Assembly (NCBI GenBank): GCA_024227975.1 | Contig: JAAETV010000102.1 | Coordinates: 1-38,190, forward strand | Length of the DNA stretch: 38,190 nucleotides | Source of the DNA: Actinomycetes bacterium | GTDB lineage: Bacteria; Actinomycetota; Acidimicrobiia; Acidimicrobiales; SZUA-35 | Direction of reading: 5' to 3' | The notes under the pieces: generated by a model | Databases searched by the model: none | Told to the model about the DNA's origin: nothing | The model's input: the letters and a program-made list of their open reading frames with translations, nothing else | In this document: in pieces, positions 5,715-38,190 of the stretch | How the letters are laid out: every line of letters begins with the position of its first letter | Numbering within the stretch: position 1 is the first letter of the stretch | Position numbers and translations under genes: made by a program

Positions 5715-6663
5715 TCAGATCTCGATCGTGTGGTGTCCCTTGGTCAGGAAGTGGTAGCTGAAACGACCGGTCGGGTCGTTCTCGGTGGCCATGGTCTCCA
5801 CCAGGTCCTCGAGCTCAGTCATGTGCTCTTTCCGGGACTCCGACAGGCCAGGGGTATCGCCCGCGCTGGTGAACCAGAAGGTGAAGGGGGTGTTCGGTCC
5901 GATCCGTTCGCCCCCAACTCCGAGACGGGCCTTGACCATGGCCGCGACCACGCTCTTCTCCGGGTTGTGGCGGGCCCCACTTGCGGCAGAACACACTGTG
6001 GTCAGCGCCAACCCGATTGACGAAGTCCTCGGTCACATTGGCCTCGGCCCCATGATGTTGCACCTTGAGGATGTCGACATGGACGGTGCCGTTGTCATCG
6101 AGCTTCTCGCACTGGCCCAGGCCAGTGAGGATGTCCTCCGATGACCCGTCGCCCGTAAGCAGGATGGTTGAACCTGATTCGTCCTTGATCAGCAGCACGA
6201 GGGAGGCCAGGTTCGGAGCGGTGATGGTTCCTTCCCCCAGGGCGGTATCGAGCCGGGGGTCTGGTAGTCGGCCAGCATCAAGCCCGCTGAGGCGTTTCTC
6301 GTCTTCGAGCATCTCTGCTTGGAGGCGCCGCAAGGCCTTCTGGCTCCGGCCGAGCCACTTCCTCCAGCGGGCCTCGAGATCCTCGACTGCCTCGGTGGTA
6401 GGCCCGATGACGTCGATGGTGAAAGGTCCGATCCGGCGGAACTCGGCGGTCCCGACGATCATCAGCTCGTTGCGAGGTCGGTTCCGCTCGATATTGAGCT
6501 GGCGGGTCGAGATACGCCGGGGCAGCTCCATCGACGACCGTTCGCCAGTAGCCAGATTGTCGCAGTGGGAGGCCAGGGCATTGGGGTCGGGATCTATCGA
6601 TCCGGCGAAGGTGGCGGCGGTCGTGGCTAGTGTGGCTTCGATCTCTGGCTCGAGCTCCTCACC
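5715..6663 (-). pseudogene. Metallo-beta-lactamase-fold hydrolase remnant (N-terminus lost, frameshifted)
   Basis: Reading leftward from about 6663, one frame gives a segment with T-I-L-L-T-G-D-G-S-S-E-D and then L-K-V-Q-H-H-G-A, the C-terminal half of a ComEC-like metallo-beta-lactamase-fold domain. At about 5984-5988 that frame drifts into low-complexity residues, while another frame takes over with G-A-R-H-N-P-E-K-S-V-V and runs to the stop at 5715. Removing one C from the GCGGCA run restores a join reading V-F-C-A-S-G-A-R-H-N-P-E. The N-terminal H-x-H-x-D-H metal-site half is absent: the frame is closed by a TGA just upstream, where the S8 peptidase remnant ends. A sequencing error could explain the frameshift but not the missing N-terminal half. 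Confidence 0.75.
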
Positions 6664-7665
6664 GATTCATGTCGGCGATGAGGCCGGCGGCCGGGATGTG
6701 GCCACTGGCGTGAATCCGACCCGAGGCGTAGCCGACGTCACCCTCGAACTGGGCTGCCTCTTGGCCCGAGTTGCCAGCGGCTACGGCGTCAGCGGCCGTG
6801 AGGGCGATCGTCACCCCAACCAGGACTGCCTGGGGGCACACCTCCTGATTGCCGGCGGCGATGCTGGCCACATGGGTGCCGTGAGACCCGACCTGCATGG
6901 TCGACTGGGGGAGGAAGTCGCTGGGGGCGACCCCGACGGCGGCCGCATCGGCGATAGCCCGGTTCATGTCCTCAGCGGTCAGCACCACCCCGTACCCAAA
7001 GGGAGAATCGGCCTCCTCAGATGGAGACGGGGGAGTGGCACCCTGGTCCCAGATCTTCTCGAAGCGGGTCTTGCCACTTCGCATGAAATCGAGGTGGGCA
7101 AAGTCGAAGCCGCCAACGTCGATGATGCCAACGATCACGGCACGGTCATCTGGTTCCGGGAGTTCGGCTTCGGCTTCTCCCGAGATCCGGGCGTCGGGAG
7201 GCTTCAGGCTCCGGATGATGCCAGTTGGTGTCGGTTGGGACAGGGTACGCCGGCCTCGATATAGGCGATCCCCTCCTCGAAGGGGCCCGATCCCAAGCCC
7301 CGGGAGAGACGAGTGACCTCCGCTGGAGTCAGCTCAACGGTGGCCAGATCGCCTTTCATTGCTGAAGGTGCTGCGCCGCCCGGAAGGTCTGTCGTGCTCG
7401 ACCGGAAGCTATCGAGATGGACGAAGCAGCTGACCAAGGCAGCGTCTGTAGCATCCTTGCGGCTCGGCGGCTTCTCGATGTCGTCATCTGGTTGGGCCCT
7501 GGCCGCGGCGTCGGCTAGGTCGACGTGGGCGTTGCGAGACCTCGGAGATCCGCTCGTCACCGAGGCCGACATGGCCGCCCGATAGCCGTTGACCTCAGCG
7601 TCACCGTTGACGATCATCCGCAGCTTCGGTGAGAGCCGTTGGCGGTACTCGGCTTCATTGCTCAT
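6659..7665 (-). pseudogene. Subtilisin-like (S8) peptidase remnant (frameshift, internal deletion, no catalytic Ser)
   Basis: The gene starts with ATG at 7665 (AAGGGG nine bases upstream) and runs in one frame to a stop at 7204. The continuation lies in a different frame: the linker and I-V-G-I-I-D-V-G-G-F-D (catalytic Asp region) and G-S-H-G-T-H-V-A-S-I-A-A-G (catalytic His) end at 6659. The frame change lies near 7235-7245. After the His motif, sequence typical of the start of the fold passes directly into A-V-A-A-G-N-S-G-Q-E-A-A (the oxyanion-Asn region), so roughly 60-70 residues appear deleted. The segment with the catalytic G-T-S is missing altogether. The locus cannot make an active S8 enzyme. 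It sits directly upstream of the MBL remnant, as if the two were once adjacent genes. Confidence 0.78.
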
Positions 7666-7769
7666 CGATGGTGTCCCCTTAACACCCACGCCATCTTCGT
7701 GGCTTCAGTCTCGCGCGCTGTCTCGCCCCTCTTGGGCGATACCGGATGAGCGATGGATCCCACCGCGAC

Positions 7770-24680: not shown

Positions 24681-25172
24681 TCAGAGCAGGGCCTCATTGA
24701 TGACCTGGTCGATGAGCTGGGGAAGTGCGTCTCGGGCCTGTTCTGACAAGGGCGCTCCTAGGGACAGATCGGCGGCTTCCATGGCATAGACGATGAGCTG
24801 GCCCGGCAACCGATCGAGAGCCCGGCCCAGAGCCACGGCCTCGGCCAGCCCGCCGTGGTGGGAGCTGGCCACTGCCCCGGGGGCAGGGAGAGGATCGGTG
24901 TCGATATCGATCCGATGGATCTCACCCGGAGCTCCGCCCCCGGCGGCCGCATCGATCACGATGACCCGCTCCCTGTCACGCCATGCCTCGATGAGGCGGG
25001 CCGGCTCCCCGTCGAGCACGATCAGCTTCACCCTGTCTCCGATCCCTTTCTGGGGGCCGAGGCAGGCTATGGCGACGGGGCCGATGCTGTCGTCGCCCCG
25101 CATGGTGTTGCCGATCCCGATCACGGCCACCGGTTGACGTGGTTCACCGAGGGTCAGCCGATCGGTTGTCAT
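24681..25172 (-). CDS. [NiFe]-hydrogenase maturation endopeptidase
   Basis: A protein of 163 residues from ATG 25172. It shows V-I-G-I-G-N-T-M-R-G-D-D-S-I-G, the N-terminal motif of HyaD/HybD/HycI proteases (Glu/Asp nickel ligand region), then V-I-V-I-D-A-A, and S-S-H-H-G-G with the metal-ligand His. The enzyme checks for Ni in the large subunit and clips off its C-terminal tail. Its ATG overlaps the stop of the large-subunit gene (ATGA), so protease and substrate are made from coupled translation. An upstream in-frame start at 25220 lies inside the large subunit and is less likely. Confidence 0.9.
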   Translation of the reverse strand: MTTDRLTLGEPRQPVAVIGIGNTMRGDDSIGPVAIACLGPQKGIGDRVKLIVLDGEPARLIEAWRDRERVIVIDAAAGGGAPGEIHRIDIDTDPLPAPGAVASSHHGGLAEAVALGRALDRLPGQLIVYAMEAADLSLGAPLSEQARDALPQLIDQVINEALL

Positions 25173-26473
25173 GAGCGGTCGACGGTCAGATCGAGGAAGT
25201 GGGTTGCGCAGCTGATGCATGGATCGTGGTTGCGGATGGTGACCTCAGCTTGGCGTCGAAGGTCGTCGTCGTCGAGGTGTAGGTGCTGCTCGACGAATCG
25301 ACGCAAGTCGCCTTCGATGGCGGGTTGGTTCTGCGAGGTCGGAGGTACGATCACGGCGTCGGTGATGAGTCCGTCATCGTCGATCGTGTAGCGATGATAT
25401 AGCAGGCCCCGCGGGGCTTCGGTTGCCCCATGACCGGTCCCGGGTCGGGGATCTGCTCGGACGCTGGCTTCATCGGGTTGCTGGTAGTTGTCGATTATGG
25501 CCAGCGCTACCTCGAAAGCGTGGACGACCTCGACTGCTCGCACCACGATGCTGGTGAAGGGGTTTGCACAGACGGGTCCGAGCCCGGCCGTGGTTGCCGC
25601 CGCCGTGGCTTGGGGTGAGAGCTTGGCTGAGTGGAGGCTGTAGCGGGCCAAGGGGCCGACCAGGTAGTTGCCCCCACCCCGACGCTGCCCGTGGAGGGCC
25701 GTTGAGTGTTCGACATGGACTTCCTCGAACACCTCGGCGAAGGACGCCACATCGATGTCCAGTCCGTGGCTGGAAACGATCCTGGTCCCCATCATGGGGT
25801 ACTCATCGCCGGCATCGAGGGCCACCAACTCGTATGGCAGTTCCTGGTCGGGGAAGTCGAAAGCGCCAACCTCCCCTACGACCTCGATGGCCAGGGCCAG
25901 GCCTTGTTCCAACCGAGCCCGTAGCGGTTCGAGGGTGCTGCGGGTCGGGGCCCGGTAGAAACCTCCAAGCTTTATGTTGACCGGGTGAATGGCCCGGCCC
26001 CCCACGGTCTCGAGGATCTCGTTTCCGATCTTCTTGATCTCGAGACCCCGTTCGACCAGGCGCCGATGCTGGCTCGCCATGTCGATGGCGCTGTCGTAAC
26101 CGAGGAAGTCGGGGGCGTGGAGGAGGTGGATGTGGAGGGTATGACTCTCGATCCACTCACCACAGTAGAGGAGGCGGCGGAGCTCGTGGAGGGGGCCATC
26201 GACGGTGATGCCGATGGCGTCTTCCAGGGCGGCGCAGGCGCTCATCTGGTAAGCCACCGGACAGATTCCACAGATCCGAGCGGTGACGTCGACCGGCTCG
26301 GCATAGCCACGGCCTCGGAGGATGCCTTCGAAGAACCGGGGCGGTTCGTAGATGTTGAGCTCGATCCCGGTCAGCTCACCGTCGCGGACCTCGATCCGCA
26401 TCGCCCCCTCACCCTCCACCCGGGCCAGCGCCCCGGTACTGAGGGCTCTACGGCCAGGCCCGTCATTGCTCAT
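25169..26473 (-). CDS. hyhL: Group 3b [NiFe]-hydrogenase large subunit (alpha)
   Basis: The Ni-Fe catalytic subunit, 434 residues from ATG 26473 (GAGGAGG upstream; the frame remains open upstream but that part is the small-subunit gene read in another frame). The N-terminal motif is [10 protein letters not shown] and the C-terminal motif D-P-C-I-S-C-A-T-H, giving the four Cys ligands of the Ni-Fe centre. Cleavage after that His would remove nine residues, F-L-D-L-T-V-D-R-S. The L1/L2 forms, and the FeS/flavin partners in the operon, fit soluble NAD(P)-linked group 3b enzymes. Coupled by ATGA overlaps on both sides. Confidence 0.94.
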
Positions 26474-27285
26474 GGTCGCCTCCTCGTTTCCGCCGGGAGC
26501 GGGACCGGGATTGGGTCTGGCGCGCTCCGGAAGGGGACCGACCAGGCATTGAAGGTGTGGAAGAGTCGCTCGATCTCGCCGAGGCTGAGACCTTGGGTGG
26601 CCAGCAGGGCGGCCAGGGCAGCGGTGTTTGCCGTCTCGGCCGGACCGAAGCAGCCGTAGCAGCCTCGATCGAAGGTGGGGCACAGGGCACCACAACCGGC
26701 GTGGGTCACCGGACCGAGACAGGGGGTGCCACCTCTGACCGCGATGCAGGGATTGCCCTTCTGCTTGCACTCGATACACACCGAGTGGCTGGGGATGATC
26801 GGTTTGCGGCCGGCGAGGTAGGCGCCGAGCACTTCGAGTAGCTGGTGACGGTCGATGGGGCATCCCCGCAACTCGAAGTCGACCTCGACATGATCGGCGA
26901 TGGGGGTCGAGGCGGCGAGAGTGGAGACGAAGGCCGGGGTGGCATAGACGATACGTAGCAGCTCCTCGACATCACCGAAGTTGCGTAGGGCCTGGATCCC
27001 ACCTGAGGTGGCGCACGCTCCGATCGTGACCAGGAACCGGGACTGGCGTCTCACCTCCTGGATTCGTTCGATGTCGTGGGCCGTGGTGATCGATCCCTCC
27101 ACCAGGGACAGATCGTAGGGTCCGGCGACGGTGGCGCTCGAGGCCTCCAGGAAGTAGTTGATGTTGACCTGGTCGGCCACGGCCAGGAGCTCATCCTCAC
27201 AGTCGAGCAAGCTCAGCTGGCAGCCGTCGCAGCTGGCGAACTTCCACACCGCCAGGGTGGGCTTGGTCGGTGGACTGGGGCTCAT
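26470..27285 (-). CDS. hyhS: Group 3b [NiFe]-hydrogenase small subunit (delta)
   Basis: The electron-transfer subunit, 271 residues. Proximal cluster ligands: F-A-S-C-D-G-C near the N terminus, G-A-C-A-T-S-G-G, and R-G-C-P-I-D. The C-terminal half has further cysteines, [11 protein letters not shown] and [16 protein letters not shown], enough for two more FeS clusters. No twin-arginine signal is present, so the enzyme is cytoplasmic, as expected for group 3. ATG 27285 overlaps the gamma-subunit stop (ATGA) and the gene's own stop overlaps the large-subunit start (ATGA). Confidence 0.94.
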
Positions 27286-28130
27286 CGTTCCCGCACCCGG
27301 AGTAGAGCCTCTACCTGAGGCCAGTCGAGTACGGGGCCGTCCTTGCAGATGAATGACGATCCGAGCTGGCAGTGGCCACAGTGGCCGATGGCGCAGTGCA
27401 TGTTGCGCTCCATGCTGAGCTGGACCGCCGATGGGGCCACCCCGAGATCGGTCACAGCCAAGGCGCTGAAGCGCATCATCACTTCAGGTCCACAGACAAA
27501 GGCAACCGTGTTGGTGGGATCGACCGGAGCTCGTCCCACCAGCCGGGTCACCACCCCTACATCGCCCCTCCATTCGGGAGTCGCGCTATCGACTGTCACC
27601 TCGATGTCGATATCGAGGCGGCCCCGCCACTCCTCGATCTCGTCGCGGTATAGGAGGGTGTCAGGAGATCGGGCCCCTATCAGGACCACGGCGCGCCCGA
27701 AGGCCGGTCGCTCCGCCAGCACAGAGGTGATGATGGGGCGTACGGGGGCCAAACCCAGCCCGCCGGCCAGCACCAATACATCCCGGCCGCGGGCCTGGTC
27801 CAGACCCCAGCCGGTGCCATAGGGACCCCGGACCCCGATCTGGTCTCCTGGCGATGCTTCCACCAAGGCGGTCGAGACTGCTCCTACCCGGCGGATGGTG
27901 TGGGTGAGGGTTCCGGCCTCGAAGCCGGCGACCGAGATCGGGGCTTCGCCAACTCCGAAGGCCCACAACATGTTGAACTGGCCCGCTCCCGGAGGGTCGC
28001 AGCCTTCGTCGAGCGGAGCGAGGTCGAGGGTCACCGTGTCGGCCAGCTCCTGGCGACGGGAAACGACCTCGTACATCCTGGGCGTCATCGGCCCCGGAGG
28101 GGTGGGTGCTTGTCTGGTCTCAGGATGCAT
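27282..28130 (-). CDS. hyhG: Hydrogenase gamma subunit, FAD/NAD(P)-binding diaphorase
   Basis: A protein of 282 residues of the ferredoxin-NADP reductase-like family. G-Q-F-N-M-L and E-A-P-I-S-V-A-G form the flavin-binding barrel, [11 protein letters not shown] starts the NAD(P) domain, C-G-P-E-V-M-M follows, and the C terminus carries a [2Fe-2S] motif [11 protein letters not shown] ... C. It would exchange electrons between the FeS chain and NAD(P)H. The ATG at 28130 overlaps the preceding gene by 11 bases; a later in-frame ATG (28088) is an alternative because the first 14 residues are Pro-rich and not conserved-looking. Confidence 0.91.
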
Positions 28131-28584
28131 GATTGCCGTAGAGGTCTATCAGCTGGAGCCGGGTTGCCTGCAGCCGGTCCCGGATCGGGCTGGCGAAACG
28201 TTGAAACAGCTCATAGCCGAGGCGAGGATCCGCATCGCAGCGCTGCCGGAGGCAGATGGCGTCGATGGCGATGGTGTGTGCCTCGGAGACCACTCTGGCG
28301 TCGAACGTCCAGCGGTAGGGGGGAAGGAGCCACGAGACGCCAAGGATCTCACCCGGTCCGATCGTCTCGATGACGAAGGGACCTTGACGGGGGGTGGCCA
28401 CCTCCAGCGCCACCAGCCCACTGAGCAGGAGGTAGAAGGTGTCGGCCGGCTGGTTTTCGACCAGGACGATGGTCTCCTGATCGAGTTTGACCTCCTGGCC
28501 ACAGCCCGCGATAGCTTCCATGGCCTCGGCCGAGAGTCCAGCGAAGAAGCGCTGTTGGTCTAGTACTTCGGTGATCGCGCTCAT
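28120..28584 (-). CDS. Cyclic-nucleotide-binding domain protein inside the hydrogenase operon (no DNA-binding domain)
   Basis: A protein of 154 residues from ATG 28584. It is a single cyclic-nucleotide-binding (CAP effector) beta-roll: [29 protein letters not shown], then [24 protein letters not shown]. The phosphate-binding cassette normally has G-E-x-x-(6-10)-R-(T/S)-A; here it is altered (G-E-I-L-G-V-S ... R-W-T-F), so nucleotide binding is uncertain. A C-terminal helical tail follows but no helix-turn-helix. It is tied by an ATGA overlap to the beta-subunit gene, so it may modulate the hydrogenase complex directly rather than act as a transcription factor. Confidence 0.85.
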
Positions 28585-29720
28585 GATGATGCCTCGTCGG
28601 GGTCTGGGGATGACTGGGGGGTAGCCAAGGCTGCCGTTTCGGCTGTCAGGTCGATGCCGACCGGGCACCAGGTGATGCAGCGGCCGCAGCCGACACAGCC
28701 CGAGCTGTCGAACTGGTCGTGCCAGGTGACGAGCTTGTGGAGTAGCCACTGGCGGTAACGGCTCTTGGTGCTCGTCCTCACCGAACCGCCGGTCAGATGG
28801 CTGAAGTCGATAGAGAAGCACGAGTCCCACACCCGCCAACGTTCAGCCTCGGTCCCAGTCAGGTTGGTGTTGTCCTCGGTTCGGCTGCAGAAGCAGGTGG
28901 GGCAAACCATGGTGCAGTTACCGCACGCCAGGCAGCGGTCTGCTACCTCGTCCCAACGAGGATGGTCCGGAGCGAGGGCGGCTAGGGGTGGGTGGGCGGG
29001 ATCGAGGTGGCGACCCATGGTGGCCTTGGCTCGATCGTGAGCCCCCCGGGCTTCGGCCAGCTCTGTCTCGGTGGCCTGCCGACCGCCGACCGAGGCTAGT
29101 AGGTCGGAGCCCCGGTCGGTTCCGGCCGCCACCAGGAATGCGTGCTCGTCTTCGGAGTCGGATCGATGGATCTCTCGGATGGAGAGATCGAAACCGCTGG
29201 TCGGGGAGGGGCCGGTGTCCATCGAACTACAGAAGCAAGTGTTTCCAGGCCGATTACAGGCGGCGGCGACGACGAACACGTCGGGGCGTCGGGCGGCATA
29301 GGCGGGGTCGGTGGCCGCCGGGTCGAGGAAGACCCTGTCCAGGAGTCCGAGGGCGGCAAGGTCGCAGGAGCGGATGGCGAAGAAGGCGAAGGAGGGTGCT
29401 TCGGGTGTCGGCTGGACGATCTCGATCGTGCCGTCGGCCCGCCTGGCTCTGATGAGTAGTGTCCTCTCGGGGTAGAGGAACCGCTTCCATGATGTCGATG
29501 GGCTGGAGAAGGCGAGGACCTCGGTGGTCCCGGTCGGTTCGAGGCGGTAACGGCCTCCGTCTTGATCCTCGCTCCAGCCTTCGGGCAGGTCTGCGATCGA
29601 GCCGATCTCGGCGTGGGTGATGACCCCGTTCTCGACCTTCGGACCGATGACGGTTCGGCCCTGGGCTCGTAGTCCTACGAGGAGGCCCTCGAGCTGGTCC
29701 ACTGAGAGGATCTGCACCAC
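28581..29720 (-). CDS. hyhB: Hydrogenase beta subunit, iron-sulfur protein
   Basis: A protein of about 379 residues if started at GTG 29720 (or at the next codon, 29717). An ATG 57 bases earlier (29777) has no ribosome-binding site, and a palindrome lies between the two, so the later start is preferred. The middle has R-S-C-D-L-A-A-L and [10 protein letters not shown]. Two ferredoxin-like [4Fe-4S] motifs follow: [16 protein letters not shown] and [13 protein letters not shown]. This is the HyhB/sulfhydrogenase beta family, which bridges the small subunit and the flavin subunit. It is the first gene of the operon in the direction of transcription. Confidence 0.9.
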
Positions 29721-29735
29721 ATGAACCCTATGCGA

Positions 29736-29750
29736 CCGACACCCTGTCGG
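29736..29750. promoter_or_regulatory. Perfect 6-3-6 inverted repeat upstream of the hydrogenase operon
   Basis: CCGACA (29736-29741) and TGTCGG (29745-29750) flank CCC. It sits about 15-30 bases before the preferred hydrogenase start (29720/29717). On the minus strand TAGGGT (just after the palindrome) lies at a leaderless -10 distance from GTG 29717. A dimeric regulator binding here would cover the core promoter. The repeat would be inside the coding region if the upstream ATG at 29777 were used. Confidence 0.45.
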
Positions 29751-29796
29751 CGTCGTGGGGTTGCCAGCTATCTTCATCTGTTCCCGTTCACGCTGG

Positions 29797-33139: not shown

Positions 33140-33970
33140 ATGACCTCGATGAGACCACTTCGCCTCCTTCACACCTCAGATGTACACATTGGTGGTGGCT
33201 ACCGAGCGCCAAGCCACGGCGACCATCATGATCACTGTTTGTGCCCCCTCGTCGTCATCGAGCGACTGGTGATTGCTGAGTCGATCGACGCTGTGCTGAT
33301 CGTCGGGGACCTGTTCGACCACCAACGAGTCAGCCCCGATCTGGTATCCGAGGTTCTGGACCGCCTCGGTGCCCTCGGAGTCCCTTGCGTCGTGATCAAC
33401 GGCAACCATGACGTCCACGACGAGGCGTCGATCTATCACCCCCAAACGGTCGGCCAATCCGGTGTCCACTTCTTCGATGACCATGAGGGGAAACAGGTCG
33501 AGCTGTTCGATGGTGCTTTGAACCTATGGGCCAAGGCCATGCCGATCCATGATCGCCAGTTCCGCCCCCTGCAAGACGTCCCACCCCGGCCCCGAGGCGA
33601 CAGTTGGTGGGTGGTGCTAGGCCACGGCCACTACGAGCCCGTCGAACAGGACCACTTCGGCCGCTCGTCCCCCCTGTCACCGGAGGACATCGAGGCCACC
33701 CGGGCCGACTATCTCGCCCTCGGGCATTGGCATGTCCGTACCGATGTCAGCACCGACAGCGTCGTCGCCTGGTACTCGGGTGCCCCCTACGGAGTGGTGA
33801 CATCGGATCAGATGAACGTGATCGACCTCCACCCCGAAACTGGAGTCGAGGTTGGCTCGGTTACGGTCAGCCTTCCCGCTGAAGGGTGTCGACTGGAGAT
33901 TGTCGGGCTCGACGGTCGGCTCGTCGCAGGCCCCGATCTCGACACGCGAATCGAGCCTCTGCTGATCTAG
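33140..33970 (+). CDS. Calcineurin-like metallophosphoesterase, SbcD/Mre11-like
   Basis: A protein of 276 residues (or 273 from the ATG at 33149). It has all five metallophosphoesterase motifs: T-S-D-V-H-I-G, V-G-D-L-F-D-H, N-G-N-H-D-V, G-H-G-H-Y-E and L-G-H-W-H. The L-L-H-T-S-D-V-H-I-G opening and spacing resemble SbcD/Mre11 nucleases, but the C-terminal capping domain is short and no SbcC ATPase gene adjoins it. It could be a stand-alone nuclease or a phosphatase. No ribosome-binding site is visible before 33140. It lies about 100 bases before the Hen1-type methyltransferase on the same strand. Confidence 0.83.
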   Translation: MTSMRPLRLLHTSDVHIGGGYRAPSHGDHHDHCLCPLVVIERLVIAESIDAVLIVGDLFDHQRVSPDLVSEVLDRLGALGVPCVVINGNHDVHDEASIYHPQTVGQSGVHFFDDHEGKQVELFDGALNLWAKAMPIHDRQFRPLQDVPPRPRGDSWWVVLGHGHYEPVEQDHFGRSSPLSPEDIEATRADYLALGHWHVRTDVSTDSVVAWYSGAPYGVVTSDQMNVIDLHPETGVEVGSVTVSLPAEGCRLEIVGLDGRLVAGPDLDTRIEPLLI

Positions 33971-34076: not shown

Positions 34077-34781
34077 ATGGACCTCTCTTCAAGGATGAGT
34101 GTCGAGCCAGTGGGCACCCCGAGTGGGCGGTCTGGGCGCGAACGGGTGTCTCGGTCTCCGAGCCTGAACGAGCTCCGGCTCATCGTTGTCTGCGACATTG
34201 TCGTGGCTTCCGGCGCTGCCCGGGTGCTCGATCTCGGATGCGGCGAGGGGAAGATGGTCGGGCTACTAGCCGAGGAACCCCAGATCGAGAAGGTCATCGG
34301 GGTCGACGTCTCCCGCCAGGCATTGGAGGCGGCAGCCCACCGACTCAGCTTCGACGAGCGGAAGGTCCGTGACCGGTCTGGACCCATGATCACCCTCCTC
34401 CACGATGACGTGGCCGGTCATTACTCCGAGCTGAGTGCTGAGCTCACTGACGTCACGGTCGACGCCGCCCTGGCCGTCGAGATCATCGAGCACCTCGATG
34501 GTGACCAGCTGGCCCGGTTCGAGGAGAACTTGTTCGACCATGTCGGCCCCAGCCTGATCGTGGTCACCACCCCCAATCGGGAGTACAACGTGCATCTCGA
34601 CCTTGGGGGGACAGAGGCTCTCCGCCACCGAGATCATCGCTTCGAGTGGACGCGCCATGAGTTCGCAGCCTGGGCCATGGGCTTGGCAAGCTGTTTCGGT
34701 TACGGTTTGAGCTTCACCGGGATCGGCGACCACCGGCCTCGAACCGGGCCTCAGACCCAGGCTGCTATCTTCCGACGCTGA
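34077..34781 (+). CDS. Stand-alone Hen1-type RNA 2'-O-methyltransferase domain
   Basis: A protein of 234 residues corresponding to the C-terminal half of bacterial Hen1, which methylates the 2'-OH of the 3'-terminal ribose in RNA. Visible are P-S-L-N-E-L-R-L just before the fold (28-35), the SAM motif V-L-D-L-G-C-G-E-G-K-M (50-60), G-V-D-V-S, the metal ligands E-I-I-E-H (Glu135, Glu138, His139), T-T-P-N-R-E-Y-N (164-171) and H-R-D-H-R-F-E-W-T-R (184-193) with the fourth ligand His. The first 27 residues are Arg/Ser-rich and unlike the Hen1 N domain, which is missing. A normal Hen1 N domain is found 2.8 kb downstream. The ATG overlaps a preceding TAA (TAATG) of a very short frame. Confidence 0.88.
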   Translation: MDLSSRMSVEPVGTPSGRSGRERVSRSPSLNELRLIVVCDIVVASGAARVLDLGCGEGKMVGLLAEEPQIEKVIGVDVSRQALEAAAHRLSFDERKVRDRSGPMITLLHDDVAGHYSELSAELTDVTVDAALAVEIIEHLDGDQLARFEENLFDHVGPSLIVVTTPNREYNVHLDLGGTEALRHRDHRFEWTRHEFAAWAMGLASCFGYGLSFTGIGDHRPRTGPQTQAAIFRR

Positions 34782-34784
34782 TCG

Positions 34785-35555
34785 TCATAGAGACGAGGTC
34801 ACCAACTCGGCAAACACCTCCTCGGCATCGAGGTTCACCCCTTGACGAACAAACCAGGTACAGACGTTGGTCACGTCACGGTGCAGTAGGTTGAGGCCCT
34901 GTGGGTTGGCGGCGATATCGACGGCCTGAGGGAAGTCGATGAACCAGAGTCGTTCACCCCACCACAACAGGTTGTAGGCCGATAGGTCGCCATGAGCGAT
35001 GCCGGTCGAGGTCATGGTGTGTAAACCGTCGACGAGTTGACGGGCTGCCTCGGCCATGCGATCGGGGTCGAGTCTGGCTGCCGCCAACTGGGGGGCAGCC
35101 TGCTCGTGATCACCGATGTACTCCATGACGAAGCGATCCTCGGAGAATGACACCGGGTGGGGGACGGTGACCGCGGCTTGCCACAGGCGCACCATGATGT
35201 TGTATTCATGATCGGTCCAGCGACTCTGGAGGAGGCGCTTGCCGTGGCCTGACATCCGCTCAACAGCCCGACGATCGCGGGTCTTGCGGAATTGGCGGCC
35301 TTCGCGGTACTGGACGTCGTGGCGGAACGCCGAGGCCCGATCGAATCCGAGAGCTTCGAGCTCTCCCTTGGACTTGACCTGGCGGGGCACGTATCGCTTC
35401 ACAGCCAGGAGGCAGGTGCGGAGATCGGATCCGGTCCGTTCGATCAGATCGACCTGGGCCTCCTTGCCGGACTTGAGGGGTCCGAGATCTATCTCGGACC
35501 AGGGTTCGGCCACGAGCCAGCTAGGGCTCGGGCGATGGTGGGATTGGGTTGACAC
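34785..35555 (-). CDS. RIO-type atypical protein kinase
   Basis: A protein of 256 residues. L-G-P-L-K-S-G-K-E-A-Q-V is the RIO phosphate-binding loop, L-A-V-K-R-Y holds the ATP Lys, a long insert with R-K-T-R-D-R-R-A-V-E-R follows, then H-G-D-L-S-A-Y-N-L-L-W-W (catalytic Asp and metal Asn) and F-I-D-F-P-Q-A-V-D (second metal Asp). This is the RIO1-like group; in eukaryotes and archaea RIO kinases act on small-subunit ribosome maturation, but bacterial roles are unknown. GTG start with GAGGAG four to five bases upstream. A 7-bp hairpin lies 15 bases before the start. Convergent with the Hen1-type methyltransferase, with three bases between stops. Confidence 0.88.
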   Translation of the reverse strand: MSTQSHHRPSPSWLVAEPWSEIDLGPLKSGKEAQVDLIERTGSDLRTCLLAVKRYVPRQVKSKGELEALGFDRASAFRHDVQYREGRQFRKTRDRRAVERMSGHGKRLLQSRWTDHEYNIMVRLWQAAVTVPHPVSFSEDRFVMEYIGDHEQAAPQLAAARLDPDRMAEAARQLVDGLHTMTSTGIAHGDLSAYNLLWWGERLWFIDFPQAVDIAANPQGLNLLHRDVTNVCTWFVRQGVNLDAEEVFAELVTSSL

Positions 35556-35570
35556 AGGGCTCCTCGGGAT

Positions 35571-35590
35571 CGGTTCGAAACAACGAACCG
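35571..35590. promoter_or_regulatory. Perfect 7-6-7 inverted repeat upstream of the RIO kinase
   Basis: CGGTTCG (35571-35577), loop AAACAA, CGAACCG (35584-35590). It sits 16-35 bases upstream of the GTG start, so it is either an operator near the promoter or a hairpin in the 5' leader just ahead of the ribosome-binding site. The stretch 35591-35744 shows nothing I can assign. Confidence 0.45.
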
Positions 35591-35744
35591 GTCACCCGCA
35601 GGAGCGGCGTCAGGCCCTTCGGGAGGCGCGACCGGGTATGAGCAATGCCGTGAACACAGTCATCTGATGCACACCCTCCTTCTCGGTCGAGCTGTTCCGG
35701 AGACGCTAGCCGGCTGGACCGACCCTGTCGCTCGAATTAGCGGA

Positions 35745-35759
35745 GAGTTGGGTCAACTC
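35745..35759. terminator. Short hairpin 35 bases after the anti-sigma gene
   Basis: GAGTTG (35745-35750) and CAACTC (35754-35759) with loop GGT. It lies just past the minus-strand stop at 35794 and could end the sigma/anti-sigma transcript, but the stem is short and no T-tract follows. Confidence 0.25.
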
Positions 35760-35793
35760 AGCCGGCCCAGGTCGCCTGGTCGAGGTCAACAGG

Positions 35794-36864
35794 TCAGTCG
35801 CCGAACCCGGCGCCCAGACCGGCACCGTGTGTTGCTCCGTCGAGGGGGACGGCATCGGTCGGAGCCTCTATGGTCAAGTCAGCTCCCAGGTTGGAGAACG
35901 AGATCACGACCTCGAAGCGAGCTTCACCATTGCCGGCGCCCTCTCCTCGAGGTTCACGGACATCGCCGCTGAGGCTCAGCTGGCGCAGCAGACCATCTTC
36001 GTCGACGAACAGATCGACGGTCACGTCACCTTCGGCGTCGATGTCGGCTGCATCAATCGGTAGCCAACGAGCTTGGTTCAGGGTCTCACCATCGAGATCG
36101 ATCACACTGCGGTAGTGGGTGGTTGCCAAACCGTCGGTGGTGGTCGGGCCGATCTCTTCGGTCTCCAACAGCTCCTCGACCGTGGTCAGGACAGAGCGGG
36201 GGTCGACGAACTCGATCAGGGTCGTGGCCAACCCGGCTGGGGCTTCGATCACATACCACTGGCTTCCGTCGTTGAGATAGATCTTGCCGTCAACCAGCTT
36301 CGTCTCGACTGACGAGGGCAGATCGTCGCCAACGGTCGTCGGCTGATCAGACAGCTCTACCGCGAGGGCCAGATCAGCCCCGCTGAAGGTGGCGGTGACA
36401 TCACCAGCAATCTGTTCGGAGTATGAGCCGTCGGTACCGTCGAGCCAAAAAGTGACAGCAACCTGTCCGCTGTCACTGTTGGCGGTGGCCGCAGCTGCCG
36501 AGTGCACCGCGGCCAGAGCGCGTGGGGTGTTGTCTGGCAGGAAGGTGGCTACACCAGCCACCAGGATCATCACTGCGGCAGCGGCGCCAGCCAGGACGGC
36601 CCAGTGCCGCCGCCGGCCCTGCTGGCGAACCCGCTTGACCTCAGGCAGCTTGGCGAACAACACCTCCGGTTCATGGGTTCCATGGGCCTGGCCGGTACCA
36701 GCGTCGCCGGTGGCCGAGTCGATATCGGCATTGCTGGTATCGGCCATGACGGCGTCCAGCAGGTTCCGGGATGCCTGGTCATCGATCGAAGGCAGGGTGG
36801 CGGGGTCAACAGGGTCGGCGGCCTGGAGTCGATGCATGAGGTCGTCGCGGGGGTTGATGGTCAT
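35794..36864 (-). CDS. Membrane-anchored anti-sigma-like protein with lipoprotein-type outer domain
   Basis: A protein of 356 residues. The first 85 are cytoplasmic (D-D-L-M-H-R-L-Q-A-A-D-P-V, with R-N-L-L-D-A-V-M), then R-R-R-H-W and a membrane span (about 87-108). The outer part (110-356) is beta-rich (V-A-V-T-F-W-L-D-G, K-L-V-D-G-K-I-Y-L-N-D-G, T-H-Y-R-S-V-I-D-L) and recalls LppX/LolA-like lipid-binding domains. Its ATG overlaps the stop of the ECF sigma gene (ATGA), the standard arrangement of a sigma factor and its anti-sigma. No zinc-binding H-x3-C-x2-C (ZAS) motif is visible, so sigma binding is inferred from context. Confidence 0.75.
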   Translation of the reverse strand: MTINPRDDLMHRLQAADPVDPATLPSIDDQASRNLLDAVMADTSNADIDSATGDAGTGQAHGTHEPEVLFAKLPEVKRVRQQGRRRHWAVLAGAAAAVMILVAGVATFLPDNTPRALAAVHSAAAATANSDSGQVAVTFWLDGTDGSYSEQIAGDVTATFSGADLALAVELSDQPTTVGDDLPSSVETKLVDGKIYLNDGSQWYVIEAPAGLATTLIEFVDPRSVLTTVEELLETEEIGPTTTDGLATTHYRSVIDLDGETLNQARWLPIDAADIDAEGDVTVDLFVDEDGLLRQLSLSGDVREPRGEGAGNGEARFEVVISFSNLGADLTIEAPTDAVPLDGATHGAGLGAGFGD

Positions 36865-37448
36865 CTCTGGTCATCCTCTGGTTCAGATTCGGTTTCGGGG
36901 GTCAGTTCGGCTTGGAGCCGTTGACGGGCTCGGTGGAGGCGAAGGCCAACTGCATTGGTGGTACAGCTGAGGACTTGGCCGATCTCGGCGTGGCTCAAGC
37001 CCTCCCAGGCGGCCAACCGGAGTACCTCCTGGTCGTCGGGCGAGAGCTTGATCAGGGCGGACCGAAGTTCTGCCCCATGTCGTTCGGCGGGGTCGGGAAC
37101 TTGGGCTTGTCGGTCGTGGGTTTCGAGCCTGTCAACCAAGCGAAGGCGGCGGTTCTGGGAGCGCTGCTGGTTGCGGATCACATTGGCGGCGATCCCGTAG
37201 AGCCAGGGGAGGGGAGGGCGCTCGGGGTCGATCTCATCTCGCCGACGCCAGGCGGTGGTGAAGGTGTCGCTGACGACATCATCGGCTTCGGCCCAGTTGG
37301 TAGTACGGCGCCGGGCGTATGCAGTGAGGGGGCGCAGGGTCGACTGGAACATGGCCCGGAATCGGGCATGGTCGTCGGCGCTCGGGGCGGCAGGGGTGAT
37401 GATGGTAGGGGAGAGGGGTGTTCCCACATCTGGTTCTTGTCCGGACAC
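36861..37448 (-). CDS. ECF-type RNA polymerase sigma factor
   Basis: A protein of 195 residues with region 2 (F-Q-S-T-L-R-P-L-T-A-Y-A-R-R-R ... W-A-E-A-D-D-V-V-S-D-T-F-T-T-A-W-R-R, P-W-L-Y-G-I-A-A-N-V-I) and region 4 (L-S-P-D-D-Q-E-V-L-R-L-A-A-W-E-G-L-S-H-A-E-I-G-Q-V-L, N-A-V-G-L-R-L-H-R-A-R), and no region 3, as in extracytoplasmic-function sigma factors. It would recruit RNA polymerase to an envelope or stress regulon and be held by the membrane protein that follows. GTG start with GGAG upstream. A candidate autoregulated promoter lies at 37462-37487. Divergent from the Hen1 gene. Confidence 0.93.
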   Translation of the reverse strand: MSGQEPDVGTPLSPTIITPAAPSADDHARFRAMFQSTLRPLTAYARRRTTNWAEADDVVSDTFTTAWRRRDEIDPERPPLPWLYGIAANVIRNQQRSQNRRLRLVDRLETHDRQAQVPDPAERHGAELRSALIKLSPDDQEVLRLAAWEGLSHAEIGQVLSCTTNAVGLRLHRARQRLQAELTPETESEPEDDQR

Positions 37449-37461
37449 AGCTCCAACCTTT

Positions 37462-37487
37462 CACGACCTCGCACCTTTTCGGGTTCG
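37462..37487 (-). promoter_or_regulatory. Candidate ECF-type promoter upstream of the sigma gene
   Basis: On the minus strand CGAACC (37487-37482) is followed after 16 bases by CGTG (37465-37462), close to the general GAAC-N16-17-CGT pattern of ECF promoters. It is positioned 14 bases before the sigma-factor start, consistent with autoregulation. The remaining sequence to 37563 holds no clear plus-strand promoter for the Hen1 gene. Confidence 0.4.
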
Positions 37488-37563
37488 GTTGGCCAAAACC
37501 AGGCACACGGCGGCCCGAAATGTCTCCCCGCCGAGACTCAGCATCGGGTCTACTGGAGCCTCC

Positions 37564-38190
37564 ATGCTGCTGTCTCTGACGTCCATCGTGTCTGGGTCGT
37601 CGAGCTCGTTCGACGCCACCGACCTCGGCTATCTCCTAAACAAGCACCCGAAGCGGGTGCGAACTGTCGACGTCAAGTTCGGTCAGGCCCATGTGTTCTA
37701 TCCCGAGGCCAACCCCCATCGTTGCACGGCGACTTTGCTGGTCGAGGTGGACCCGATCCGGCTCAGCCGTGCCACGAAGGGAGGGTGGGCCCAGAACCTC
37801 GAGCCCTACGTGAATGATCGGCCCTACGCCGCATCGTCACTGCTCAGCGTTGCCCTCGGGCGGATGTTCGGCTCAGCGCTTGCTGGTAGGTGCGAGGCCA
37901 AACCGGAGCTCGTAGATCGGGCCGTCGAGTTGGAGATCGAGCTTCCCGTCGTTGGCGTTCGTGGGGGCGAGGAGATTCTCCGTCGGCTCTTCGAGCCTCT
38001 CGGCTACCGGGTCGAGTGCTCGCCCATCATGCTCGACGAACAGTTCCCGGAGTGGGGCGAGAGCCGCTATCTCACCGTGAAGATGGTGGGGACCCAGACC
38101 GTGAAGGCTGCCCTGGAGCACCTGTTCGTGCTCCTCCCGGTGTTGGACGACCGCAAGCACTATTGGATCGGGGGCGATGAGGTCGACAAG
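37564..38190 (+). CDS. hen1: Hen1 (3'-terminal RNA ribose 2'-O-methyltransferase), N-terminal domain; gene runs off the window
   Basis: An open frame of 209 codons without a stop at the window edge. It matches the N-terminal domain of bacterial Hen1: L-L-S-L-T at the start, D-L-G-Y-L-L-N-K-H-P, F-G-Q-A-H-V-F-Y-P-E-A, C-T-A-T-L-L-V-E-V-D-P, Y-V-N-D-R-P-Y-A-A-S-S-L-L-S-V-A-L-G-R-M-F, E-I-L-R-R-L-F-E-P-L-G-Y, D-E-Q-F-P-E-W-G and D-D-R-K-H-Y-W-I-G-G-D-E. This domain activates or positions the polynucleotide kinase-phosphatase-ligase (Pnkp) that repairs cleaved tRNA; pnkp normally follows hen1. Whether the methyltransferase half follows here cannot be seen. TGGAG just upstream serves as ribosome-binding site. 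Confidence 0.9.
   Translation, partial: MLLSLTSIVSGSSSSFDATDLGYLLNKHPKRVRTVDVKFGQAHVFYPEANPHRCTATLLVEVDPIRLSRATKGGWAQNLEPYVNDRPYAASSLLSVALGRMFGSALAGRCEAKPELVDRAVELEIELPVVGVRGGEEILRRLFEPLGYRVECSPIMLDEQFPEWGESRYLTVKMVGTQTVKAALEHLFVLLPVLDDRKHYWIGGDEVDK

Follow-up and report, generated by a model that had tools for sequence, protein, structure and literature searches.

A free-standing Hen1-family methyltransferase encoded near a hen1 gene in an acidimicrobial contig

We analysed a 38,190-nucleotide stretch of DNA (hereafter, the window) that comprises positions 1 to 38,190 of contig JAAETV010000102.1 in assembly GCA_024227975.1, from an actinomycete of the order Acidimicrobiales. The window encodes a free-standing methyltransferase of the Hen1 family and, 2,782 bases beyond its stop codon, the 5' part of a separate hen1 gene. 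3'-terminal 2'-O-methylation by bacterial Hen1 is tied to RNA repair with Pnkp (PMC4411300). We consider it probable, at roughly 0.6, that the free enzyme is an intact, diverged Hen1 methyltransferase that methylates RNA 3' ends beside the Hen1 that serves repair, its catalytic activity and substrate being predicted from the sequence and a structural model.

Family, active site and start of the free enzyme

The frame of the free enzyme matched the bacter_Hen1 profile TIGR04074 at profile positions 254-462 of 462 only (203.1 bits, E = 5.6e-60), in agreement with an earlier note on this DNA that read it as the methyltransferase half of Hen1 alone; the score lies below the curated cut-off of 340 bits, which applies to the whole protein. 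Pfam assigned generic methyltransferase domains, and no PF12623 (Hen1_L) match was found in the same protein. By sequence, the nearest solved structures are the bacterial Hen1 methyltransferase domains 3jwi, 3jwg, 3jwh and 3jwj together with human 4xcx. An AlphaFold2 model built from 31 aligned sequences (mean predicted local distance difference test score, pLDDT, 81; predicted template modelling score, 0.80) was compared to known structures with Foldseek, where ranks 1-11 were all Hen1 (E = 7e-22 to 5e-17) and the next methyltransferase followed at 1.1e-10; the best fold matches were CtHen1-C (3jwi/3jwg), AvHen1-C and the human HEN1 domains (template modelling score by target 0.77-0.89 for ranks 1-9). 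Sequence and predicted fold together show that the free enzyme falls inside the Hen1 family.

The complete set of S-adenosylmethionine (SAM)-binding and metal-binding residues that the earlier note had claimed is borne out by an alignment in which 83 rows were treated as full-length Hen1 (including some records that are partial or cut by their contig) and four rows are free, namely the window enzyme (P0001) and its free-form relatives P0003, P0004 and P0005. The motif I residues D52, G54, C55, G56 and G58 and the ligands E135, E138 and H139 are invariant (83 of 83 full-length and 4 of 4 free rows), and so is the ligand H187 (82 of 82 and 4 of 4). P0004, which is 70% identical to P0003, keeps the ligands and motif I. 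In human HENMT1, the metal ligands are E132, E135, H136 and H181 (PMC10781085), with which the four residues align.

The same note gave the enzyme a new Arg/Ser-rich N terminus. The open frame does extend over this segment, but its translation is improbable, and GTG 34146 is a likelier start than ATG 34077: P0003 (97% identical to the free enzyme, 211 amino acids) begins at codon 24, which is this GTG; residues 1-23 are not conserved in P0004 or P0005; their guanine plus cytosine (G+C) content by codon position is 0.61/0.65/0.70 (23 codons only) vs. 0.70/0.43/0.78 in the body; and residues 1-24 have a pLDDT below 50 in the model. The Arg/Ser-rich segment is therefore probably an untranslated leader, and its reading as an N terminus probably an artefact of choosing the upstream ATG. 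A start at ATG 34077 is still conceivable because a purine-rich stretch precedes it, which is compatible with the longer form.

The neighbouring hen1 gene and the lineage of the free enzyme

A Hen1 N-terminal domain does begin at 37564 and leave the window, as the earlier note had it: apart from the Hen1_L profile (E = 1.2e-86), the frame matched chain 4dqz_A (deposited as a type 12 methyltransferase) at E = 5.3e-69. A protein search with this frame, scored on its 209 Hen1 residues, yielded 7,996 matches, of which the best 120 were examined. One of these, P0123 (414 amino acids, from a 1,777-base contig), is 100% identical to the window Hen1 start over all 209 residues and runs on into a methyltransferase half (TIGR04074 positions 8-406, 562 bits, above the 340-bit cut-off); it stops at ...NVHFDRLDPT, apparently at the contig end, with the last part of the domain lying beyond it. 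The next nearest relatives, P0124 and P0126-P0128, are two-domain proteins of 462-468 amino acids, and 115 of the 120 relatives listed exceed 400 amino acids. Given the identity of P0123 over 209 residues and its own methyltransferase half, the presence of a full-length Hen1 and a second, free enzyme in this species, one of two arrangements that the earlier note had envisaged, is supported if P0123 speaks for the species. The other five of the 120 relatives listed (P0125, P0173, P0208, P0210 and P0235; 264-351 amino acids) carry Hen1_L only; the sequence of P0125, which is among the five nearest, reaches motif I before ending, and the catalytic half of P0173 is reduced to its final dozen residues, which looks like a deletion of the domain. 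All five may be truncated, frame-shifted or genuine N-only proteins.

In three related loci, hen1 is immediately followed by a gene whose product matches the bacter_Pnkp profile (1,282-1,392 bits), and we therefore expect pnkp just beyond position 38190; by the same analogy, the Pnkp/Hen1 complex is probably present in this genome. Within the window, a tblastn search with a Hen1 N half returned 37564-38190 as the sole match, with no N-domain upstream of the free domain, and a search with Pnkp from a related locus returned no match, leaving the free domain without an adjacent pnkp.

We reconstructed the phylogeny of the catalytic domains of free and full-length enzymes. A first, quick tree held 143 rows: all suitable locus domains, 25 of the 120 proteins from the Hen1_L search, 16 of the 120 from a search with the free enzyme, the four free rows and one human row, with the protein rows chosen by hand. 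A more careful tree held 92 of these 143 rows; the remaining 51, omitted here, comprised the human row, loci that duplicated a gene already present, P0046 with its long branch, the short halves P0023, P0025, P0037 and P0101, and, by thinning, cyanobacterial, poribacterial, chloroflexotal, verrucomicrobial, myxobacterial and acidimicrobial rows and a few single rows. The careful, smaller trees were preferred because the quick tree missed better trees and supported the four-member free clade at only 67%. In the careful tree, P0001, P0003, P0004 and P0005 form one clade (support 100/99), P0123 belongs to a separate supported clade away from it, and the stems of the free lineage are long (0.51 and 0.55 changes per column). 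When seven rows of the proteobacterial stand-alone enzymes described below were included, these formed a second clade (100/99), and the free clade lay within a supported set of 45 rows (96/97, the bootstrap not being settled), in which its neighbours include Hen1 of Actinomycetota and cyanobacteria. These trees show the free enzymes to be a distinct and well-diverged lineage, not close duplicates of the neighbouring Hen1. A recent copy of that gene was considered and rejected, given 42% identity between the free domain and the catalytic half of P0123 over 154 residues and the separation of the two in the best tree; the rejection applies to a recent copy only. Approximately unbiased (AU) tests did not reject trees joining the free clade to 26 acidimicrobial rows (p = 0.486) or to the proteobacterial stand-alone clade (p = 0.439), and the stand-alone forms are accordingly compatible with either one or two origins.

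The free form is rare. A scan of named genomes, from which 80 of 456 confirmed loci were kept, contained none shown to be free-standing: in 76 of the 80 the frame continues for at least 184 residues upstream of the catalytic domain, in L008 it continues for 121 residues, and L011, L058 and L072 run off the contig edge. Among 395 sampled Acidimicrobiia genomes, 96 had any match at E = 1e-3 and 8 had a match of Hen1 strength, of which 7 lie in frames of at least 468 amino acids and 1 is cut by a contig start. A HisG comparison across 198 sampled genomes pointed to a nearest genome at 57% identity, and 248 genomes sampled from its order yielded 20 matches, 19 of them in frames of at least 463 amino acids and 1 broken across two frames. 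Finally, 376 sampled Actinomycetota genomes, searched with P0005, yielded 25 matches, 23 of which are in frames of at least 459 amino acids (one with an internal TAG), while one of the other two is broken and one sits at a contig start. Judged by frame length, without a Hen1_L search and with the best 7, 12 or 8 candidates scored per genome, none of the genomes in these overlapping samples (395, 248 and 376) has a free orthologue. Eleven hen1 genes compared in full align over 462-477 residues. Among the sequences found, the free clade itself comprised just the window enzyme and, judging from their length, P0003 (on a 7.7-kb contig), P0004 and P0005 (contigs of 1,359 and 1,553 bases).

Other short catalytic halves were noticed. 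P0059 and P0082 sit among acidimicrobial Hen1 on the tree, P0069 groups with Geodermatophilaceae Hen1, and P0082 is perhaps a broken Hen1, since its first residues resemble the linker of that protein. P0023, P0025, P0037, P0101, P0069 and P0082 are Hen1 catalytic halves of 200-248 amino acids, and for all but one of them the contig is between 25 kb and 2.7 Mb long; some begin like the acidic linker of full-length Hen1, and all six are possibly products of Hen1 splitting at the linker or of frameshifts.

Genomic setting and stand-alone enzymes elsewhere

The features of the locus are collected in Table 1. Between the free domain and hen1, the earlier note placed a RIO kinase and a sigma/anti-sigma pair; the kinase and the extracytoplasmic function (ECF) sigma factor are recovered, and the anti-sigma identity rests on weak matches, with no Pfam match for that protein. 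The kinase gene converges with the free methyltransferase gene at a gap of 3 bases. On the other side, the phosphoesterase gene (matches of its product to SbcD structures start at E = 1e-5) lies on the same strand, with 175 bases separating its end from GTG 34146, and from gene order the two are possible partners in a transcription unit. In 11 loci around hen1 of relatives, the RIO, sigma, anti-sigma and phosphoesterase proteins of the window had no blastp match at E = 1e-6, and the two nearest genomes contained no clear phosphoesterase orthologue (best E = 8.3e-10, residues 4-93) and no match to the RIO kinase.

Table 1. Coordinates of the free methyltransferase, its sequence elements and the neighbouring genes in the window
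Feature	Position	Strand	Details
SbcD/Mre11-like metallophosphoesterase	33140..33970	+	PF00149 E = 2.4e-12; TIGR00619 60 bits, below cut-off
Free-standing Hen1-type methyltransferase, open frame	34077..34781	+	234 codons from ATG 34077
Arg/Ser-rich N terminus, residues 1-23	34077..34145	+	Probably untranslated leader
Free methyltransferase, probable coding region	34146..34781	+	GTG start, 211 amino acids
SAM-binding motif I, DLGCGEG	34230..34250	+	Residues 52-58 of the 234-residue frame
Position of YxDxR of full-length Hen1	34416..34430	+	Residues 114, 116, 118, here G, Y, E
Metal ligands E135, E138, H139 (EIIEH)	34479..34493	+	Aligned to human E132, E135, H136
Metal ligand H187 (DHRFEW)	34635..34637	+	Aligned to human H181
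RIO1-like (RIO1-family) kinase	34785..35555	-	PF01163 E = 8.1e-35
Anti-sigma-like (SCO4651-like) protein	35794..36864	-	NF053532 E = 1.3e-12, NF052375 E = 5.9e-4, both below cut-off
ECF sigma factor	36861..37448	-	PF04542, PF08281; TIGR02937 above cut-off
hen1, 5' part with Hen1_L domain, cut by window end	37564..38190	+	PF12623 E = 1.2e-86; TIGR04074 positions 8-202

PADLOC returned partial matches of the RIO1-like kinase to the mad6 model (E = 1.5e-6) and of the free methyltransferase to the mad2 model (E = 4.1e-8), the latter being matched by P0123 as well (E = 2e-13); for the methyltransferases and the kinase, these are partial matches to parts of Mads only. Elsewhere in the window, three successive frames at 5815-7689 (minus strand) comprise one that PADLOC matches to LmuA (E = 1.8e-14), a second that reads as part of a subtilisin-type protease and a third without a PADLOC match, and they are possibly a protease/nuclease defence pair, perhaps broken. 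The translations of open reading frames at 24681-29777 (minus strand) read as a NiFe hydrogenase cluster with a maturation protease and electron-transfer subunits.

Stand-alone Hen1 methyltransferases also occur outside Actinomycetota. A plasmid search gave 23 records, 2 of which were opened, and plasmid NZ_CP101744.1 of Comamonas sp. C11 encodes such an enzyme of 229 amino acids (WP_256497024.1; L134:4905-5594), its gene being flanked by a TraR/DksA-type gene and by cfa, with the gene for release factor 3 coming next. With this protein as the query, 8 of 369 sampled genomes from the class of Arenimonas oryziterrae had a match at E = 1e-20, Arenimonas, the centre of the sample, being among the 8. 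In six of the eight (G832, G853, G810, G881, G668 and G791), there was no Hen1_L match and no Pnkp match above the cut-off, whereas the two with frames of full-length size (G543 and G911) have both Hen1_L and Pnkp; the completeness of the eight genomes is not given, and the absences are to be read accordingly. Weak partial matches to the Pnkp profile occurred in all 8 of these genomes and in 9 of 14 control genomes. G791 has a longer frame (431) with a C terminus that seems to be out of register. None of the seven stand-alone loci (L134 and L147-L152) contains Pnkp or Hen1-N, and the sharing of neighbours across them is only partial: L134 and L147 both have a SulP transporter and a stress protein; L150, L151 and L152 have a mutarotase-like gene, joined in L150 and L152 by a helicase-like gene (both names read from the sequence); a gene annotated as a kinase is common to L134 and L150; and L149 and L151 share a further two genes.

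With the Comamonas enzyme as the query, a protein search gave 1,456 matches at E = 1e-30 under a length filter of about 126-400 amino acids, which excludes full-length Hen1 by design. Among the best 120 of these, none has PF12623, 117 are no longer than 260 amino acids, and 117 match both metal-motif patterns. Some relatives, for example those of Pseudazoarcus pumilus and Desulfuromonas soudanensis and several JGI records, bear the database name small RNA 2'-O-methyltransferase, and those of Thiomonas and Rhodoferax are labelled methyltransferase domain-containing protein. In viral contigs, there were two loci (L129 and L130) at 36% identity, and in phages four records, all at 30% identity or less. 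The 481-residue frame at L129:4152-5597, on an IMG/VR contig catalogued as viral, reads like a full-length Hen1. On the Enterococcus raffinosus plasmid pCX012922 (L135:4260-8828), a 418-residue methyltransferase with weak similarity to Hen1 is followed by a metallophosphoesterase protein of 850 residues and then by one with a nucleotidyltransferase domain, a set that resembles a divergent RNA-repair cassette. A literature search, mainly of open-access papers, found among the matches listed no title or abstract opening on a stand-alone bacterial Hen1; a 2006 study mentions short bacterial HEN1 forms of unknown function, that is, forms without the plant extension (PMC1397878).

Proposed function, alternatives and known systems

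The known mode of guidance by Pnkp is not available to the free enzyme, which lacks Hen1-N. The isolated catalytic domain of bacterial Hen1 is reportedly active. Animal Hen1 enzymes, which lack the plant double-stranded-RNA-binding motif, act on short single-stranded RNA, and bacterial Hen1 is reported to prefer Mn and to act on RNA of 12-24 nucleotides with no sequence specificity except a preference for 3' G (PMC10781085, PMC8220740). Because of these substrate ranges, we propose that the catalytic domain of the free enzyme, like the animal enzymes, would capture single-stranded RNA 3'-OH ends directly; methylation of the terminal 2'-OH would then shield the end from trimming, tailing or re-ligation. 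The likeliest substrates would be tRNA or rRNA fragments or other short RNAs, with the nearby full-length Hen1 still serving repair together with Pnkp, and one may speculate from gene order that the SbcD-like phosphoesterase prepares RNA ends for the free enzyme.

The motif YxDxR, which follows the SAM-adenine region, bears on this proposal in both directions. In full-length rows, Y and R are each conserved in 82 of 83 and D in 83 of 83, whereas the motif is changed in all four free rows, each of its positions is changed in at least 6 of the 7 proteobacterial stand-alone rows, and the pattern occurs in 0 of the best 120 of the 1,456 relatives of the Comamonas enzyme vs. 112 of the 115 listed Hen1 proteins above 400 amino acids (searched from residue 231). 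Possibly, YxDxR makes a contact that is relevant only in the presence of the N domain or Pnkp. Its loss is nevertheless ambiguous because human HENMT1 and the stand-alone row L147 both retain D and R, and it could reflect altered handling of RNA or cofactor rather than freedom from Pnkp. These two retentions count against the proposed role, and so do several further points. The relatives are only three database proteins, and with contigs of 1.4-1.6 kb P0004 and P0005 are likely, rather than certain, to be complete and free-standing. Beside the 67% support in the quick tree, trees in that data set joining P0001, P0003 and P0004 to P0123 (p = 0.53) or to 36 acidimicrobial rows (p = 0.643) reached a higher likelihood than the free search, and in the careful tree the AU test leaves a union of the free clade with P0123 unrejected (p = 0.387). 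The argument for action without a partner also leans in part on the proteobacterial group, whose common origin with the free clade has p = 0.439 and whose genome completeness is not given.

An unlikely alternative is that the free domain has shifted to another substrate, be it another RNA position or a small molecule, so that only the fold and the metal site recall Hen1. Besides the loss of YxDxR and the long stems, 7 of the 57 alignment columns conserved in at least 93% of the full-length rows are changed in all of P0001, P0003 and P0004 (6 of 57 in P0005), the same three proteins have a six-residue insertion just after the YxDxR segment, and UbiG and other small-molecule methyltransferases have a fold related to that of Hen1 (PMC1397878). 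However, the free rows keep TTPN, DHRFEW and the C-terminal Q along with motif I and the full set of four metal ligands, and the closest structural matches are to Hen1 (E of at most 5e-17 vs. 1e-10 for the next methyltransferase). Comparably improbable, if not slightly more so, is an accessory subunit of the Pnkp/Hen1 complex that takes the place of the Hen1 catalytic half or provides the complex with a second active site. The full-length hen1 lies 2.8 kb away and pnkp directly follows hen1 in the three related loci, but three opposite-strand genes intervene, the 11 hen1 loci of relatives lack blastp matches to the genes around the free domain, no partner was detected in the six genomes that carry proteobacterial stand-alone enzymes, and the N domain, which activates the Pnkp ligase (PMC4411300), is absent.

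A functionless, decaying fragment of a duplicated hen1 is very improbable: the missing N domain and the rarity of the free form would suit it, but the frame is open, P0003 is 97% identical and starts at the codon corresponding to GTG 34146, P0004 keeps every ligand at 70% identity, and the G+C content by codon position is coding-like. Least probable, and to be dismissed, is a Hen1 split in reversed order, the second arrangement envisaged in the earlier note, with the catalytic half at 34077 and an N domain alone at 37564; the window does end inside the N domain and five listed relatives, including the near P0125 (though this reaches motif I), are Hen1_L only, but P0123 continues from an identical N domain into its own methyltransferase half and the listed relatives are overwhelmingly longer than 400 amino acids.

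The sampled genomes with stand-alone enzymes and no detected Hen1-N or Pnkp make it more plausible, without demonstrating it, that the free domain works independently of the Pnkp/Hen1 complex, as the earlier note had suggested. More tentatively than for the window enzyme itself, we suggest that one or more stand-alone bacterial Hen1 branches might cap the 3' ends of chosen RNAs by 2'-O-methylation outside repair, as a bacterial counterpart of HENMT1 that is marked by the loss of Hen1-N and YxDxR and can share a cell with a repair Hen1. If so, bacteria would mark RNA ends for a reason other than repair, for example, to protect tRNA fragments or small RNAs. What calls for explanation is a conserved catalytic domain without the repair half, next to an apparently intact repair Hen1 in the window and with no detected partner in six proteobacterial genomes; the arrangement is moderately interesting by itself and more so as a pointer to stand-alone bacterial Hen1 as a class.

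Compared to the bacterial Hen1 of the Pnkp/Hen1 cassette (TIGR04074), the free enzyme shares the SAM motif, the four metal ligands, the TPN and DHxFEW motifs and the predicted fold, but lacks Hen1_L, reaches 203 of 340 bits, has no adjacent pnkp in the window and has lost YxDxR. In the Pnkp1-Rnl-Hen1 complex (4xrp), for which a path of the 3' end from phosphatase to methyltransferase to ligase has been proposed (PMC4411300), the Hen1 catalytic domain has a fold in common with the free enzyme, but the match is much weaker (4xrp_C, E = 1.8e-7; Foldseek ranks 13 and 15). The proteobacterial stand-alone enzymes resemble the free enzyme in their size of about 200-240 amino acids, the absence of Hen1_L, the retained metal motifs and the loss of YxDxR; they differ in forming a separate supported clade in the best tree, in having T for V/I after the first ligand and D or G for T after FEW (seven rows), and in that six of their genomes have no detected Pnkp or Hen1-N, whereas the free enzyme of the window has a full-length Hen1 nearby. 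The animal enzymes HENMT1, Pimet and DmHen1 belong to the same catalytic-domain family (structure matches 5wy0 and 4xcx) and likewise are not known to carry the bacterial Hen1_L. Unlike the free enzyme, for which short RNA substrates are a prediction, the animal enzymes act on PIWI-interacting and small interfering RNAs (PMC8220740), and the human one keeps the D and R of YxDxR.

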